Shown here: one piece after another, positions 6,134-14,158 of the stretch
Numbering within the stretch: the first letter of the stretch is position 1
Layout: each line of letters begins with the position of its first letter
Assembly: GCF_016863115.1 (NCBI RefSeq)
Contig: NZ_BOOG01000035.1
Span: forward strand, 1 to 64,000
Direction: 5' to 3'
Origin: Sphaerimonospora thailandensis
GTDB lineage: Bacteria; Actinomycetota; Actinomycetes; Streptosporangiales; Streptosporangiaceae
DNA length: 64,000 nucleotides
The notes under the pieces: model-generated
Told to the model about the DNA's origin: nothing
Databases searched by the model: none
The model's input: the letters and a program-made list of their open reading frames with translations, nothing else
Made by a program: the position numbers and the translations under genes

Positions 6134-7158
6134 ACGGCTCGGCTCTCCTCACCGCGGCGGTCAGCGGGTTTCTCCTCGCCGCCGCGGCAACCCATATGCT
6201 CCGCCGGGTCGCTCTGCGCTGGGAGTTCACAGATCGCCCCGGGGGCCACAAATCACACGAGCGGCCCACTCCGTACCTGGGTGGCGTGGCCATCGCACTC
6301 GGCACCATCGTTCCCCCGGTCGCGCTTGTCGGCCTGCCCGATGAGCGAGTCGCCGGGATCATCGTCGGGGCCCTGGTCCTGGCCCTGCTCGGTCTGATCG
6401 ACGATCTGCGGTCGCTCCGCCCGCTCACCCGGCTGACCGTCGAAACGCTGGCCGCCGTGGGCGTGGTGCTGACCGGGGTCCGGGCCACGGTGACCGGCAC
6501 GTGGCTGGACGTCCCGATCACGGTGCTGTGGATCGTCGTCATCACCAACTCCTTCAACCTTCTGGACAACATGGATGGCGCTCTCGCCGCCGTCACCGTT
6601 GTCAGCGCCGCGATCCTCGCGGCGGCCGCCTTCGTGTCCGCCCGACCTGTGGCCGGGCTGATCCTGGTGACGCTGCCGCTGTCCGTCCTGGGATTCCTGC
6701 CGTACAACTGGGTCCCGGCGAAGATCTTCATGGGGGACGCGGGCTCGCTGTTCATCGGATTCGTCCTCGCCTGTTCGGCCGCCCTGCTGATCACCGGTCG
6801 GGACACCGGCACCGCGATCGCCGGCCTGCTCCTGCCGACCTTCGTCGCGACCGTCGACACGGGAGTCGTGGTGCTGTCACGGAGGAGGGCGGGACTGCCG
6901 ATCATGCAGGGCGGGACCGACCACCTGTCCCATCGCCTGTGCCGGCTCGGTCTCAGCAGGAGTCTCGCGGCTCTCGCACTCGCCGCCCTCGCCGCCACGA
7001 CCGGCATGCTGCACCTGGTGATGACGCTGCGCTGGATCTCGTCGCTCACCGCCTCGCTCATCGGTCTGGGATCCGCCTGCATTCTTATCGGCCTGCCTCA
7101 GCGGGTGCGCGTCTATCCGTCGGTTCAGCCGCGGAAAACTCCTACAGGAAAGCGGTAA
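6130..7158 (+). CDS. WecA/MraY-family undecaprenyl-phosphate sugar-1-phosphate transferase
   Basis: A 342-aa polytopic membrane protein that should start glycan assembly by moving a sugar-1-phosphate from UDP-sugar onto undecaprenyl phosphate. Family hallmarks are DDLRSLRPLTR (Mg-binding DD region), NSFNLLDNMDGALA and MGDAGSLFIGFVLA. A His-rich C-terminal loop around GGTDHLSHRLCRLGLS matches the HxH loop of the WecA branch. About ten hydrophobic segments are visible. It is coupled to the SDR gene by ATGA and lies 5 bp before the BY-kinase. Confidence 0.9.
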   Translation: MNGSALLTAAVSGFLLAAAATHMLRRVALRWEFTDRPGGHKSHERPTPYLGGVAIALGTIVPPVALVGLPDERVAGIIVGALVLALLGLIDDLRSLRPLTRLTVETLAAVGVVLTGVRATVTGTWLDVPITVLWIVVITNSFNLLDNMDGALAAVTVVSAAILAAAAFVSARPVAGLILVTLPLSVLGFLPYNWVPAKIFMGDAGSLFIGFVLACSAALLITGRDTGTAIAGLLLPTFVATVDTGVVVLSRRRAGLPIMQGGTDHLSHRLCRLGLSRSLAALALAALAATTGMLHLVMTLRWISSLTASLIGLGSACILIGLPQRVRVYPSVQPRKTPTGKR

Positions 7159-7163
7159 GGAAC

Positions 7164-9155: not shown

Positions 9156-10934
9156 TCAAGGGGCGCAGTTCTGGCCTTCCTGCCGGATCACGGTCTGCTG
9201 AGGCCGGACGAGCGGTTGCACCGGAACGACCGGCGGCGCCGCCGAGTAGGGCTCGATCAGGTCGAACTCGAGCGTCCTCGCCTGACGGGGAGCGAACTCC
9301 AGCACGGCCGAGTAGACGGGATGCGACCGCTCCGTCTCCGCGTAGAAACCGACGGGCCGGCCGTCGAGGCGGGCCGCGGTCGCCCTGGCGCCGATTCCCG
9401 CGTAGAGCGACACCCACAGCCGGTTGGAGCCGGGCGGGTGCGAACGTCCCGGGGAGTCGAGCCGATCGGTGACGTAGGTGGGCAGACTTCCCCGCGGCAC
9501 ATCGTTGGCGAGCCGGATCCGTACCGTGCTGGCGCGCAGCCCGTCACCGCGGCAGGGCCCCTGCGTGTAGGTCAGAGAGCGCTTGAGGTAGTAGTCCAGC
9601 TTAGTGCCGCCCGAGTTGTTGATCACCAATCCGGCGAACGGCCCCGGCCGCTCCGGCAGCACACCGCCGAGCGGGGTGGCCGCGAGACGCCGCTCCTCGG
9701 CGTCCCTGCGACTCCAGATCTGGATCCTCCGCTCGTCCACCATCCGCGACAGGACCGGCAGCAACCGGGTCGGTTCAGCGAAGGCGTCCGATCTGACCAG
9801 CGCCTCGCTGACCGCGGCGGCGACCTTGATGAGGAACCTCTTGCGCTCCGCCGGATCCGGATATCGGCTGTACGTCGTGCGCTCGGTGAGATCGACGACG
9901 TTGCCGGCCGTCACCCTCTCGCCCCCGGGCAGCCTGACCGGCCCGATCAGCCCCAGCAGATAGGAGAGGCCGACCGGGTCGGTGGCGATGGCGCCGTCCA
10001 GGGACCGGCCGGTCTTCCGCTGCCACAGTCCGGTCCAGGTGGCCGCGGCGTACGGGAAATGCGGCGACAGGTTGGAGACGGAGAGCATGGCGGTCGCGCC
10101 CCGGCCGTAGCGTGAGCGGAAGTCCGGCCCGAAGTCGGTGACAGAGGTGGAACTGAGAGCGAGTCCGTTGTTGGCCGAGAGCCGCTCGATGCCGAGCCTG
10201 CCGTGATCGGCCGTCAGGATGCCGAACGCGCCGACCAGGCCCCCGGTGCCGCGCGCCTCGGCGTTGGTCTGGAATGCCAGGAAGTATCGGCGCGGGCCGT
10301 CGCGCCCGAGCATCGGGGGGATCAGCGAGGCGGCGTCCGCGCCCGTACGCACCCAGCCGCGCAGCCGATCCACCTCACGCAGCATCGTGTCGCGTGCCTG
10401 GTCCAGGGCCGCCACTCCGGTCCGCGCCGGCGTCCCCGCCACCAGCGACCGCACCGCGGCCAGTCGTGTGACGGCACGGTCGAGGACCGGCGCCGCCGCG
10501 TCGAGGCCGGCCAGGACCGGCCGCAGATCACCGACAGATGCGGGTCCCGCCCCCACCTCGATGAGCGGCGCGCCGGCGCGTTCGATGTCGGCCAGCATGT
10601 CGGTGACCTGCGCGACGGCTTCGGCCAGCCCGCGGGTGGTCGTGGCGCCGTCCCCCACGACCGGAGCGTGGGTGAACAGCCGCCATTCGGGGCGGTCGGT
10701 GAGCCTGCGCGCCTCGGCCGCGTGTCGCCGGGCGTCCGCGAGCGTTCCGGCCGCGGTCGTCACCGCGGTTCGCGGGTCGGCCGAACGGAGCCGGAGCAGA
10801 TCGGCCCTGGTCGCCTCCAGATGGTCTCGCACGCTCAACACGAGGTGCGCCGACCAGCCCCCGGCCAGCACGAGGCCGAGGGCCAGCGACGGCAGGCCGA
10901 TGACGACGGCCCGACGACTTCTCCTACCGAGCAC
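9156..10934 (-). CDS. DUF4012 domain-containing membrane-anchored protein
   Basis: A 592-aa protein with a single N-terminal membrane segment (about residues 11-30, ending WSAHLVLSV), a long helical stretch rich in Ala/Arg, then the DUF4012 core with RYFLAFQTNAEARGTGGL and a C-terminal beta-rich part. DUF4012 proteins are commonly found in actinobacterial exopolysaccharide loci, but their biochemical role is not established. The gene starts with GTG inside the end of the LPFTG gene (11-bp overlap), so the wall protein and this protein are co-transcribed. The product probably lies outside the membrane. Confidence 0.85.
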   Translation of the reverse strand: MLGRRSRRAVVIGLPSLALGLVLAGGWSAHLVLSVRDHLEATRADLLRLRSADPRTAVTTAAGTLADARRHAAEARRLTDRPEWRLFTHAPVVGDGATTTRGLAEAVAQVTDMLADIERAGAPLIEVGAGPASVGDLRPVLAGLDAAAPVLDRAVTRLAAVRSLVAGTPARTGVAALDQARDTMLREVDRLRGWVRTGADAASLIPPMLGRDGPRRYFLAFQTNAEARGTGGLVGAFGILTADHGRLGIERLSANNGLALSSTSVTDFGPDFRSRYGRGATAMLSVSNLSPHFPYAAATWTGLWQRKTGRSLDGAIATDPVGLSYLLGLIGPVRLPGGERVTAGNVVDLTERTTYSRYPDPAERKRFLIKVAAAVSEALVRSDAFAEPTRLLPVLSRMVDERRIQIWSRRDAEERRLAATPLGGVLPERPGPFAGLVINNSGGTKLDYYLKRSLTYTQGPCRGDGLRASTVRIRLANDVPRGSLPTYVTDRLDSPGRSHPPGSNRLWVSLYAGIGARATAARLDGRPVGFYAETERSHPVYSAVLEFAPRQARTLEFDLIEPYSAAPPVVPVQPLVRPQQTVIRQEGQNCAP

Positions 10935-11871
10935 CGGAAGACCGGCGGCGCCGTACGGAGATCAGCATGCAACCGATGGCGGCGGCGAGCAGGCCGAGCC
11001 CGGCCGCGGCGATCCCGGCCGGTGCACCGGTGAACGGCAACTGGCCCGCACCGCTCGATGCCATGGCACCTCCCGGACCGACGTTCTGCGGGGGCATGAC
11101 GCCCATCGGCATCGCCTCCGGACCGACGGCCTCTTCAGGAGCCGCCTCCCCGGAAGCGGCCTCATCAGCTGCCTCTTCCTCCTCCGACTCGTCGGAATCG
11201 TCAGACTCCTCCGGCTCGGCCGCCTCGGGAGCGGTCTCCTCCCATGGTCCGGCGGCTACTCCCGGGGCGGTTTCGTCCCATGGTCCGGCGGCTGGTCCGG
11301 CGGCTGGTCCGGCGGCCGCCCCCGGGGCGTTCTCCATGCCCGGCTGAACGGCGGGTCCCACGGGAGCGGCCTGGTTCTGCGCCGCGGGCCCGACGATGGG
11401 CGTAACCTGATGCGTCGTCCCGTTTGGCGTCCCGTTTTCGCCCGTTCCTGGGCCCATGCCGTTCCCCGGCCACATGTTGGGCATATATTGCCCAAAGCCG
11501 CCCTGGGGGTACCAGCCCGGATATCCCCCATAGCCGGGATAGCCCACGTTGCCCGGGTTGCCCTGGACGGCCGGGGCCGCCTGGTTGGCCGGCACCACCT
11601 CGTCGACCAGGACCGGGTTGGTCTGCGCCTGCTCGACCTGCACAGGTTCGGACTGGAGTTGGGTAGCCGGCGTGACGACTTGCTGGGCCGGGGGCACGAA
11701 TGCCGCGATAGGCGCGGCGGGGAGGGGCGGATAAGGATTCGTATCCCCCCGAACCACGACACTGGACGGCGACAGACCGGTCGCGGCCGCCGCCACCCCT
11801 CCCGTCGCCAGGGTAAGTCCGCCCGCGGCCGTCACCGCCAGCAGAATGGGTATCGTATTATTTCTCGCCAC
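10924..11871 (-). CDS. LPFTG cell-wall-anchored protein, Pro/Gly/Tyr-rich
   Basis: A 315-aa secreted wall protein. It has an N-terminal signal peptide ending near GGVAAAATG, a low-complexity Pro/Gln/Val region, a Gly/Tyr/Pro segment (YPGYGGYPGWYPQGG), an acidic Glu/Ser/Ala tract and a C-terminal sorting signal QLPFTG plus a hydrophobic helix and RRRR tail. The start is GTG with GGGGG 5 nt upstream. No enzymatic domain is visible; it looks like a structural surface protein. Its signal peptide, sorting signal and 5' region match those of the neighbouring LPFTG gene, while the middle is unrelated. The local sortase is the likely anchoring enzyme. Confidence 0.85.
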   Translation of the reverse strand: MARNNTIPILLAVTAAGGLTLATGGVAAAATGLSPSSVVVRGDTNPYPPLPAAPIAAFVPPAQQVVTPATQLQSEPVQVEQAQTNPVLVDEVVPANQAAPAVQGNPGNVGYPGYGGYPGWYPQGGFGQYMPNMWPGNGMGPGTGENGTPNGTTHQVTPIVGPAAQNQAAPVGPAVQPGMENAPGAAAGPAAGPAAGPWDETAPGVAAGPWEETAPEAAEPEESDDSDESEEEEAADEAASGEAAPEEAVGPEAMPMGVMPPQNVGPGGAMASSGAGQLPFTGAPAGIAAAGLGLLAAAIGCMLISVRRRRSSGAR

Positions 11872-11951
11872 TTGGACCCCCGATAACCGTCGTTCAGGTC
11901 ATAGCGCAGTTCGCCCGAAATGCTGGCGACTTGTTCGCCACTCGACAGTTA
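11872..11951 (-). promoter_or_regulatory. Structured 5' leader of the first LPFTG gene
   Basis: On the minus strand TAACTGTCG (11951-11943) pairs with CGACGGTTA (11892-11884), closing a loop of about 50 nt just before the GGGGG ribosome site and GTG start. The enclosed sequence shares GGCGAA twice and GACCTGAA with the leader at 13232-13297. One stem pair changes C-G to T-A between the copies, and a second is a G-U wobble here and A-U there, which preserves pairing. The function is unknown: a cis-acting RNA or a protein site. Confidence 0.6.
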
Positions 11952-11990
11952 TATGTGTCCGGTGAATGAGCGTCCCGCCCCGCCACACGA

Positions 11991-12031
11991 TGCTTACCGA
12001 GAGATCGGTGACCGTTCCCGGTTCATTGACG
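11991..12031 (-). promoter_or_regulatory. Conserved promoter block of the first LPFTG gene
   Basis: A 41-bp block matching 13337-13377 at about 35 positions and placed at the same distance (36 bp) from the leader stem. On the minus strand it contains GGGAAC about 15 bp before CGGTAAG, reminiscent of ECF sigma factor promoters of the GGAAC type. The sigma factor assignment is inference. Confidence 0.5.
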
Positions 12032-12106
12032 AACCGCACCCGGCCGCACCCGCCCCGGCTTCCGGCCGACCTTAGACCGGGGGTTCGGCGATATGTGGGA
12101 CCTGAC

Positions 12107-13219
12107 CTACTTCGCACCGGCCGAACGGCGGCGCCGTACGGAGACCAGGGCGGCGCCGGCGCCCGCGGCGAGCAGGCCTGCCCCCGCCAGGGCGATCCCC
12201 GCCGGTGCGCCCGTGAACGGCAACCCTCCGGGGATGTGGCCGGACGGCACGCCGTCCCGCAGCACGGGGATGTGCGGCGGTGCGATGTCCCGCGGCGTCT
12301 TCCCGGCAGGCGTGAAGCCCCCCTGCGGGGTGGCCGTCTCCCCCGGCGGGTTCACCACCGGCCCGGAGGCGTCCCTGGGGTCCGGCCGTCCCCCCGGCTG
12401 GGCCGGCCCCCCGGGTGCGTTCCCCTTTCCCGTCTGTCCGGGTCGTCCGGACCGTTCGGGCTGCCCGGGCCGTCCGGGCCGTCCGGGGCCGTTCCTGTCA
12501 CCGGTGCCCACCCCTGGCACGACGACGGACAACGCCACAGCGGGATCTTCCGGTGCCGTTCCCCTGCCCGGCCTCCTCGGGCAAGGGACGGGGACCGGTT
12601 GCCCGCAGCCGCCCCGGAGCGACGCCCCGTCTTCCTCGCGCGCCCCGCCGTACTCAGGGACCTCCTCGTCCTCGCGCGCCCAGCCGTACTCAGGGACCTC
12701 CTCGTCCTCGCCCACGCCGTCGTCCGCGGGCGCTCGGGTGTTCGCATCGCCCGGGCCTACCTGCCCGGCCTCGTCTGCCGGGCCGGCAGGAGCCTCCTCG
12801 CTGACCCCGCTGGTCGCGGTGGCCCTCCTGTCACCGCACGGGGTGGCCCGCTGGTTACACGCGGCCCGATCGCCGGCGTCGTTCCGGCAGTGGTGGGCGT
12901 GGCCGCCCTCGTCTGCCTCCCCGCATCGGGGCTTGTCGAGGCAGACGTGGTCGGCCCGCTTCAGCCGGTTGCCTCGGCAGCCGGGACTTACCGGCCAGAC
13001 GCGTTCGATGTGGCTCGGACCGCAGACGGCCGGCCCGTGCCGAGGAATGAAGATCGCCAGCGATGCGGCGAGGACCGGCGGGGTGAGACTCGCGTTCTCC
13101 CGCGCTGTGGCCTTGGGCGGCGGGCAGGGCGCCGCGACCGCGACCGCGCTGGTGCCCAGCGCGAGGCCGCCCGCGGCCGTCAGCGCCAGAAGAATTGGTC
13201 CCGCATGCTTCCGTGTCAC
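12107..13219 (-). CDS. LPFTG cell-wall-anchored protein with Cys-rich ectodomain
   Basis: A 370-aa secreted protein: signal peptide (LLALTAAGGLALGTSAVAVA), a Cys-rich part (about residues 60-120, with at least eight Cys), an acidic 12-residue repeat (EDEEVPEYG twice), a Gly/Pro/Arg collagen-like stretch and the anchor GLPFTGAPAGIALAG with an RRRR tail. I place the start at the GTG at 13219 because GGAG lies 5 nt upstream and the arrangement matches the paralogue at 11871; an ATG at 13231 overlaps that ribosome site. It lies upstream of, and divergent from, the sortase gene. No known domain is recognised. Confidence 0.78.
   Translation of the reverse strand: MTRKHAGPILLALTAAGGLALGTSAVAVAAPCPPPKATARENASLTPPVLAASLAIFIPRHGPAVCGPSHIERVWPVSPGCRGNRLKRADHVCLDKPRCGEADEGGHAHHCRNDAGDRAACNQRATPCGDRRATATSGVSEEAPAGPADEAGQVGPGDANTRAPADDGVGEDEEVPEYGWAREDEEVPEYGGAREEDGASLRGGCGQPVPVPCPRRPGRGTAPEDPAVALSVVVPGVGTGDRNGPGRPGRPGQPERSGRPGQTGKGNAPGGPAQPGGRPDPRDASGPVVNPPGETATPQGGFTPAGKTPRDIAPPHIPVLRDGVPSGHIPGGLPFTGAPAGIALAGAGLLAAGAGAALVSVRRRRSAGAK
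12648..12710. repeat. In-frame 36-bp direct repeat in the LPFTG gene
   Basis: A 27-bp identical core beginning CCGTACTCAGGGACC recurs with a 36-bp period. It encodes two copies of an acidic EDEEVPEYG unit in the wall protein, consistent with slippage-driven spacer length change. Confidence 0.85.
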
Positions 13220-13297
13220 CTGGACTCCCATTAACTGTTGTTCAGGTCTGTACGGCATTCGCCCCGATCAGGTGCCGTATTCGCCAGCCAACAGTTA
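13220..13297 (-). promoter_or_regulatory. Structured 5' leader of the second LPFTG gene
   Basis: On the minus strand TAACTGTTG (13297-13289) pairs perfectly with CAACAGTTA (13240-13232). Inside is a second perfect pair, TACGGCA (13279-13273) with TGCCGTA (13257-13251). The 3' arm ends just before the GGAG ribosome site, so the fold could control translation. It corresponds in position and sequence to the leader at 11884-11951. I do not recognise a known riboswitch class. Confidence 0.65.
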
Positions 13298-13336
13298 TAT
13301 TCGGCGGGGCCGGGACCCGTTCCCTCATCTACCTAT

Positions 13337-13377
13337 TGCTTACCGAATCATCGGCCACCGTTCCCGGTTCGTTGACG
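13337..13377 (-). promoter_or_regulatory. Conserved promoter block of the second LPFTG gene
   Basis: Nearly the same 41-bp block as 11991-12031, again 36 bp from the leader stem. The identical ACCGTTCCCGGTTC core (plus strand) suggests a common sigma factor or activator for the two wall-protein genes. Confidence 0.5.
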
Positions 13378-13525: not shown

Positions 13526-14158
13526 ATGAGGGCTCTGCGCGCCATCGGCGAGCTCGGCATCTCCATGGGACTGGTGCTGCTGCTGTTCTATGCGTACCTG
13601 CTCTGGGGCACCGACTCATACACCGAGGGGCAGCAGCACACGCTGCAGCGGCAGCTCGACCATATGTTCAGCCACGAGACCACCGGGAAGAAGAGCGGCC
13701 ACGCCCTGGGCAGGATCAGGCTCGGCCACGCCCTCGCGCTGCTCCGCATCCCACGGCTCGGCGCCGATTACAAGTACGCCGTAGTCGAGGGCGTGGGAGC
13801 GGATGAGCTGCGCAAGGGGCCCGGCCATTACCCCGGTACGGCAATGCCCGGCCAGATAGGAAATTTCGTGATATCCGGACATAGGACCACATATGCGGCA
13901 CCGTTCAACCGGATCGACGAGCTACGACGCGGCGACGACATCGTGGTGGACGTGGCGGACGCGCGCTATACCTACCGGGTCGACCACAAGGAGATCGTGG
14001 ACCCGACCGATCTGGCCGTCGTCGACCCCGTGCCCGGACACCCCGCGCTGCGACCGTCGAAGGCGATGATCACGATGACCACCTGCCACCCGAAGTATTC
14101 GGCACAGCAACGCCTGATCGTGTACGGAGTGCTCGCCACCCGCGAGGAGCGGTCATAA
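13526..14158 (+). CDS. Class E sortase
   Basis: A 210-aa membrane-anchored transpeptidase that attaches secreted proteins with a sorting signal to the peptidoglycan cross-bridge. One N-terminal membrane segment (about residues 8-30) is followed by the catalytic domain: His in VISGHRTTYAAPF, Cys in MTTCHPKYSAQQR and Arg in RLIVYG. The TTCHP form is the class E signature. It is next to two LPFTG genes that are its obvious clients, although class E enzymes are usually linked with LAXTG signals. It is followed closely by a tiny membrane protein gene. Confidence 0.92.
   Translation: MRALRAIGELGISMGLVLLLFYAYLLWGTDSYTEGQQHTLQRQLDHMFSHETTGKKSGHALGRIRLGHALALLRIPRLGADYKYAVVEGVGADELRKGPGHYPGTAMPGQIGNFVISGHRTTYAAPFNRIDELRRGDDIVVDVADARYTYRVDHKEIVDPTDLAVVDPVPGHPALRPSKAMITMTTCHPKYSAQQRLIVYGVLATREERS

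Follow-up and report, generated by a model that had tools for sequence, protein, structure and literature searches.

Two LPFTG surface-protein genes in a 64,000-nt stretch of Sphaerimonospora thailandensis DNA (the window) are each preceded by a copy of a region that is conserved in sequence, geometry, periodicity and gene context, and that precedes related genes in 53 of 341 genomes of the family. We give about even weight to the reading that each gene has its own copy of a conserved promoter, made up of an activator array and a -10 box and followed by a ~70-nt leader and an LPXTG-DUF4012 operon. The region looks like an old control element that many soil actinobacteria keep before a cell-surface gene, and mainly like a protein-binding promoter rather than an RNA switch. 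It provides a testable control point for the conserved Streptosporangiaceae LPXTG-DUF4012 operon and suggests a tie between cell-surface proteins and a PhoP-like regulator. Our search of the open-access literature, with subscription papers mostly outside its scope and broader searches judged by their top titles, found no paper on this element or on the LPXTG-DUF4012 operon. The genes and regulatory features of the window are as follows:

9156–10934, minus strand: DUF4012 protein, downstream of gene 1
10924–11871, minus strand: gene 1, LPFTG surface protein of 315 aa, GTG start at 11871
12107–13219, minus strand: gene 2, LPFTG surface protein of 370 aa, GTG start at 13219
13526–14158, plus strand: class E sortase (NCBIfam), divergent from gene 2
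11993–12030, minus strand: upstream block of gene 1, GTCAA...GGGAAC...CGATC...CGGTAAG, four units with a period of ~11 bp
13339–13376, minus strand: upstream block of gene 2, with the architecture of the gene 1 block
11948–11953, minus strand: -10-like hexamer TATAAC of gene 1, 39 bp after the block
13294–13299, minus strand: -10-like hexamer TATAAC of gene 2, 39 bp after the block
11943–11951, minus strand: 5′ arm of the outer stem of gene 1, TAACTGTCG, overlapping TATAAC
11884–11892, minus strand: 3′ arm of the outer stem of gene 1, CGACGGTTA
13289–13297, minus strand: 5′ arm of the outer stem of gene 2, TAACTGTTG, overlapping TATAAC
13232–13240, minus strand: 3′ arm of the outer stem of gene 2, CAACAGTTA
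11910–11940, minus strand: leader hairpin region of gene 1, TGGCGA/TCGCCA, or alternatively its TCGCC paired with a downstream GGCGA; its place relative to the transcription start is predicted
13251–13279, minus strand: leader hairpin of gene 2, TACGGCA/TGCCGTA

The inverted repeats, the letters shared between the two leaders and the upstream block all lie where the initial annotation had placed them. Similar blocks do stand at equal distances upstream of the two genes, with 34 of 40 positions identical rather than the roughly 35 of 41 first counted. A repeat search of the window matched the gene 1 and gene 2 regions over 52 nt at 79% and over 149 nt at 70%. The outer stem is 9 bp long in both genes, with arms that enclose 50 nt (gene 1) or 48 nt (gene 2), and it ends directly upstream of the ribosome site; its 5′ arm consists of the final four letters of TATAAC and the five letters that follow. 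Rfam gave no match in the window at the gathering score, and none of the three sub-threshold matches obtained in the window at E up to 10 fell on the leaders. Folded alone, the 86–87 nt leaders are only weakly distinguished from shuffled sequences (z of -0.67 and -2.20), and longer versions are weaker still (z of -0.32 and -0.41).

Both proteins end in LPFTG and a sorting signal, and neither is assigned a family by NCBIfam or Pfam; a search of a collection of genome contigs for relatives of the gene 1 protein returned none. The frames of gene 1 and the DUF4012 gene, as called by an ORF finder with a predicted DUF4012 start, overlap by 11 bp (10924–10934, minus strand), and given this overlap the two genes may be co-transcribed and coupled. 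Of the 23 named loci, 20 have a DUF4012 relative downstream on the same strand, and the remaining three end within 0.8 kb. Gene 2 contains tandem 36-bp units (12625–12732, minus strand) coding for EDEEVPEYG(W/G)ARE-like repeats. The divergent gene at 13526–14158 scores 234.5 bits against the NCBIfam class E sortase family, whose cut-off is 160. Class E sortases prefer LAxTG; this one neighbors substrates that end in LPFTG.

Relatives of the region were collected with a sequence-only model (R1), built from 13 sequences with no stem assumed; at E ≤ 0.1 it found 68 places, spread over 63 of the 341 genomes of the family. Our analysis set leaves out 10 weak places and holds the 58 at E ≤ 0.00123, from 53 genomes and seven genera: Sphaerimonospora, Microbispora (g65), Nonomuraea (g4), Streptosporangium (g6), g23, g32 and g61. 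All of these copies come from one gene family, and shared descent adds to every count given below. An LPxTG frame follows 51 of the 58 copies, and in three more the fetched DNA ends first; the copies with no clear LPxTG frame are G143, where the frame is broken or short, and Nonomuraea G099, G286 and G291, where there is none. Two motif copies ~1–2 kb apart, before tandem LPXTG paralogues, are also present in three Microbispora genomes (G186, G199 and G065).

A second model (R2), which covers the block and excludes the hexamer, has matches in 53 of the 345 genomes sampled from the order and in seven genera, the sample being nearly all from this family. Relative to the 58-copy set, it gains two copies, G222 and G100, and lacks G202 and G147. 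Within single genomes, R2 recovers the known site or sites at E < 1e-8 in nine of 10, with no other match below E 0.26; in the remaining genome, G202, it missed even the known site. An exact block-and-hexamer pattern returned 23 loci from a collection of 84,980 species (11 Nonomuraea, 8 Microbispora, 3 Streptosporangium and 1 Sphaerimonospora) and none in that collection outside these four genera. An exact-pattern search of 297 family genomes returned nine Microbispora genomes besides chance matches. BLASTN with the leader gave matches in 22 of 297 family genomes. Beyond the genus, two were judged true (G220 and G118); the other matches were judged to be chance among those inspected, which were part of the loci.

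The similarity exceeds chance, as a second Sphaerimonospora genome carries both copies (that of gene 2 at 85% to the query, that of gene 1 by cross-match at 69%) and the sequence-only model recovers the region in other genera. The initial annotation was right to propose regulatory conservation here, in a promoter block and in a leader under constraint, and the region does recur before LPXTG genes in other genomes.

Block and hexamer are held at a nearly fixed distance, which is 38 bp in 34 copies, 39 bp in 23 and 40 bp in one of the 58; the block itself, measured from GTCAA through CGGTAAG, is 37 or 38 bp long in 56 of the 58. The interval between block and hexamer is mostly weakly conserved, except for a modestly conserved GTGCGNCG directly after the block. 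Such a combination of rigid distance and largely free sequence is expected of proteins on DNA, not of an RNA linker. In a scan that accepted four hexamers only, all 58 copies had a hexamer of the consensus TANAA[C/A] (TATAAC in 44, TACAAC in seven, TATAAA in five and TAGAAC in two), with variation confined to letters 3 and 6. The copies outside the 58 have TACAAC (G100) and a fifth hexamer, TACCAC (G222), both 39 bp after the block. From hexamer to start codon, the distance is 78–87 nt in 54 of the 58 copies and 52–66 nt in the other four, with the start codons of G143 and G205 assigned by reading, and block and hexamer are retained in short-leader copies (G220, G138, G205 and the second G065 copy). 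In G222 (Streptosporangium; L199, ~285–412), most of the leader is lost, with only 40 nt from hexamer to start, and the block and its spacing are kept.

We infer that TANAA[C/A] acts as a -10 box, although its last letter and the missing -35 box count against this. The sixth letter is C or A and never T, which is unusual for a sigma-70 -10 box. We found no TTGACA-like -35 box 16–18 bp upstream of the hexamer, where a G-rich GGNGC lies at 17 bp in some copies only, and a promoter scan found no promoter.

The block is periodic. Among the 12 shifts tried, its self-similarity peaks at 11 (p = 0.0012), with 7 standing out as well (p = 0.008); two of 34 rows were dropped for this test and three of 34 for the test of unit patterns, and alignment A4 omits 24 of the 58 copies (three by hand as odd, 21 as near-identical). 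In the cited parts of PMC4415409 and PMC6988585, the Streptomyces PhoP PHO box is described as 11-nt direct repeat units with a conserved GTTCACC, and the corresponding parts of PMC12323332 and PMC10704036 give MtrA sites as GTAACC-N5-GTAACC and GlnR boxes as gTnAc-n6-GaAAc. On the strand opposite to the LPXTG gene, four GTTCACC-N4 copies match at 65%, compared with 33% in shuffled columns (0/1000), and both blocks of the window are PHO-box-like when the plus strand is read. The units are weak individually and are oriented away from the LPXTG gene. In each of the five genomes examined, GTTCAYC pairs spaced at 11 bp are more frequent than in the reversed control. Because MtrA-type units (0.56, four copies) and GlnR-type units (0.60–0.61) also beat shuffles (p ≤ 0.002), the family of the putative regulator is better supported than PhoP itself, which is the best candidate only as the best of three related unit patterns. 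R2 found no further site, though many genes should carry a PHO box; the model is too specific to probe the regulon. Separately, three in-phase GTTCACC-like units stand directly upstream of a nucleotidase gene judged SurE-like by eye in a Nonomuraea genome (L174, ~1490–1518) and are likely a PHO box.

We favor a promoter in which the four 11-bp units, arranged in tandem between about -89 and -51, would bind a regulator head to tail on one face of the DNA. This regulator would most likely be a response regulator of the OmpR/PhoB family, with PhoP as the leading candidate, and would recruit RNA polymerase to a TANAA[C/A] -10 box that lacks a good -35. Transcription would then start ~7 nt after TATAAC, and the resulting leader of roughly 70 nt, which may form a short hairpin in several genera, would end in the LPXTG gene's ribosome site, with the DUF4012 gene following downstream. 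The initial annotation had held that transcription starting downstream of the outer stem's 5′ arm would speak against its RNA; if TATAAC is the -10 box, that arm would be mostly untranscribed.

We consider it unlikely, by comparison, that transcription starts farther upstream and that the TAAC...GTTA stem acts in the mRNA to control surface-protein translation, perhaps with a bound protein or ligand. The case for such an RNA comes from close relatives. All four Sphaerimonospora copies have the complete stem (9 of 9 pairs), with one double change (C-G to T-A), and 7–8 of 9 pairs are present in seven of 12 Microbispora, two of three g23 and three of 13 Nonomuraea copies; the arms of one Nonomuraea copy (G226) reach -18.5 kcal/mol, stronger than every cross-genus pairing. 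Across 13 close sequences, 86.3% of outer-stem cells are paired, a level attained by two of 500 shuffles, and RNAalifold gives a structure that includes most of the stem. These signals fade in the wider alignment (A3), which holds 48 leaders from seven genera after 10 of the 58 were dropped as near-identical: pairing there is 62.1% compared with 60.4% when shuffled, a slide of +3 columns scores higher covariation than the true register (0.139 versus 0.130), and RNAalifold finds no consensus structure. Only 3–5 of 9 pairs are present in all 10 Streptosporangium copies, all three of g61, all three of g32 and eight of 13 from Nonomuraea.

Pairing between arms of the same gene tells a similar story when set against pairing across genera, a comparison that left out four of the 58 copies for their short leaders. 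Same-gene arms are clearly better only in Sphaerimonospora (-14.0 versus -9.1 kcal/mol) and less so in Microbispora (-10.4 versus -8.7); in the other five of the seven genera they are little or no better, being slightly stronger in g32 and Nonomuraea and weaker in Streptosporangium, g23 and g61 (genus-balanced p = 0.052). In addition, the 5′ arm overlaps a hexamer that is itself placed within 1–2 bp relative to the block, and a -10-like box can mimic one arm of a covarying RNA stem if only two paralogues are compared. The outer stem is kept in Sphaerimonospora, partly in Microbispora and in a few others, and is not a helix maintained family-wide by compensatory change; it may have a lineage-specific role. 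Under the promoter reading we favor, the outer stem would be mostly a by-product of the overlap between its 5′ arm and the -10 box. The initial reading as a whole is partly supported, with its RNA stem weakened.

Less likely still is the reading that GGGAAC...CGGTAAG, which the initial annotation tentatively tied to an ECF sigma factor, is the promoter of such a factor, with a start ~30 nt before TATAAC and TATAAC serving as a second promoter or an RNA element. GAAC and CGGTAAG are indeed among the best conserved letters. However, the spacer and the 12 bp upstream are as well conserved as the boxes (GATC in the former, GTCAA in the latter), and GGGAAC is replaced by GAAAAC in nine of 17 Microbispora copies. 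ECF promoters have GGAAC and CGT-type boxes with a spacing of 16–17, compared with which the 13–14 found here is short. The pattern GRRAAC-N13/14-CGGTAAG occurs only 0–2 times elsewhere in each of 10 genomes. One match in the window, GAAAAC-N13-CGGTAAG at 7134–7159 on the plus strand, ends 4 nt before the likely ATG of a polysaccharide chain-length/kinase gene; it is probably a chance match, too near the start codon to be that gene's promoter. The ECF factor BldN serves surface genes in Streptomyces. It is reported to recognize CGTAAC-N16-CGTTGA, boxes that, as given in the cited part of PMC2375139, differ from GGGAAC...CGGTAAG.

Whole leaders have a mean z of -1.18 when folded from TATAAC and -0.70 when folded from the predicted start. 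Inner hairpins include GAACAT-TCGC...GCGA-ATGTTC in Nonomuraea and GACATGTCGCTCG...CGAGCG in Streptosporangium. Same-gene arms of this hairpin are better than cross-genus arms in Nonomuraea, g23 and Streptosporangium, with a slight advantage in g1 and g61; the cross-genus arms do better in g32 and Microbispora, in whose leaders other hairpins appear (genus-balanced p = 0.024, for one of four windows compared, with five other windows tried separately). On A3, pairing is 68.5% compared with 66.6% when shuffled (16/500); Microbispora rows are shifted in the first hairpin of this alignment, making that hairpin's pairing score too low there. A single TCGC segment often has a choice of two GCGA partners, which would account for the repeated GGCGAA of gene 1, and both alternatives have at least 5 pairs in 10 of the 48 aligned copies. 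From this, one could imagine a bistable leader in which TCGCC/TCGCT lies between two GGCGA-like copies and its choice of partner, perhaps together with the outer stem in Sphaerimonospora, tunes surface-protein translation, transcription being set by the rigid four-unit activator array with its non-standard -10 box. We regard this elaboration as more doubtful again than the ECF promoter.

Very improbable is a role for the block as the divergent promoter or operator of the sortase gene. The TTGAC at the outer end of the block does read toward the sortase, and eight of nine Microbispora and Sphaerimonospora loci have a divergent sortase, but the gene 1 block faces none, and we rejected the reading on context: of the Nonomuraea and Streptosporangium loci, 11 have 1 kb or more of DNA upstream, and all of these keep the block and have no divergent sortase. 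Because the sortase is absent from these 11 loci and DUF4012 lies downstream, the block belongs to the LPXTG gene. Most improbable of all, and already disfavored, is plain shared descent, in which the copies are a tandem duplication and their similarity has no function: the 149-nt similarity does continue into signal-peptide codons and tandem pairs exist in the three Microbispora genomes too, but block, hexamer and spacing persist over seven genera and most of the intervening sequence does not.

Among known systems, ECF promoters such as those of BldN resemble this region in placing two boxes before a surface-protein gene; they differ, as far as the cited part of PMC2375139 describes them, in the boxes and their spacing, and the region here has extra conserved units and a rigid link to a second hexamer. 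Like the cis-regulatory leaders in Rfam, it includes a conserved 5′ leader with hairpins directly before the ribosome site; unlike them, it matches no family and yields no consensus structure on 48 sequences. MtrA sites and GlnR boxes, as described in the cited parts of their sources, share with the block an 11-bp period and a match above shuffled columns, though a poorer one (0.56 and 0.60–0.61, respectively, versus 0.65 for PhoP). The PHO box, in the form described in the cited parts of its sources, shares the 11-bp period and the several head-to-tail units and fits best among the unit patterns tried, whereas the units here are weak singly, run opposite to the LPXTG gene and, with TATAAC as the -10 box, would occupy about -51 to -89. 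Taken as the promoter and leader of a surface-protein operon, the conserved region is of a kind already known; its place here is new.
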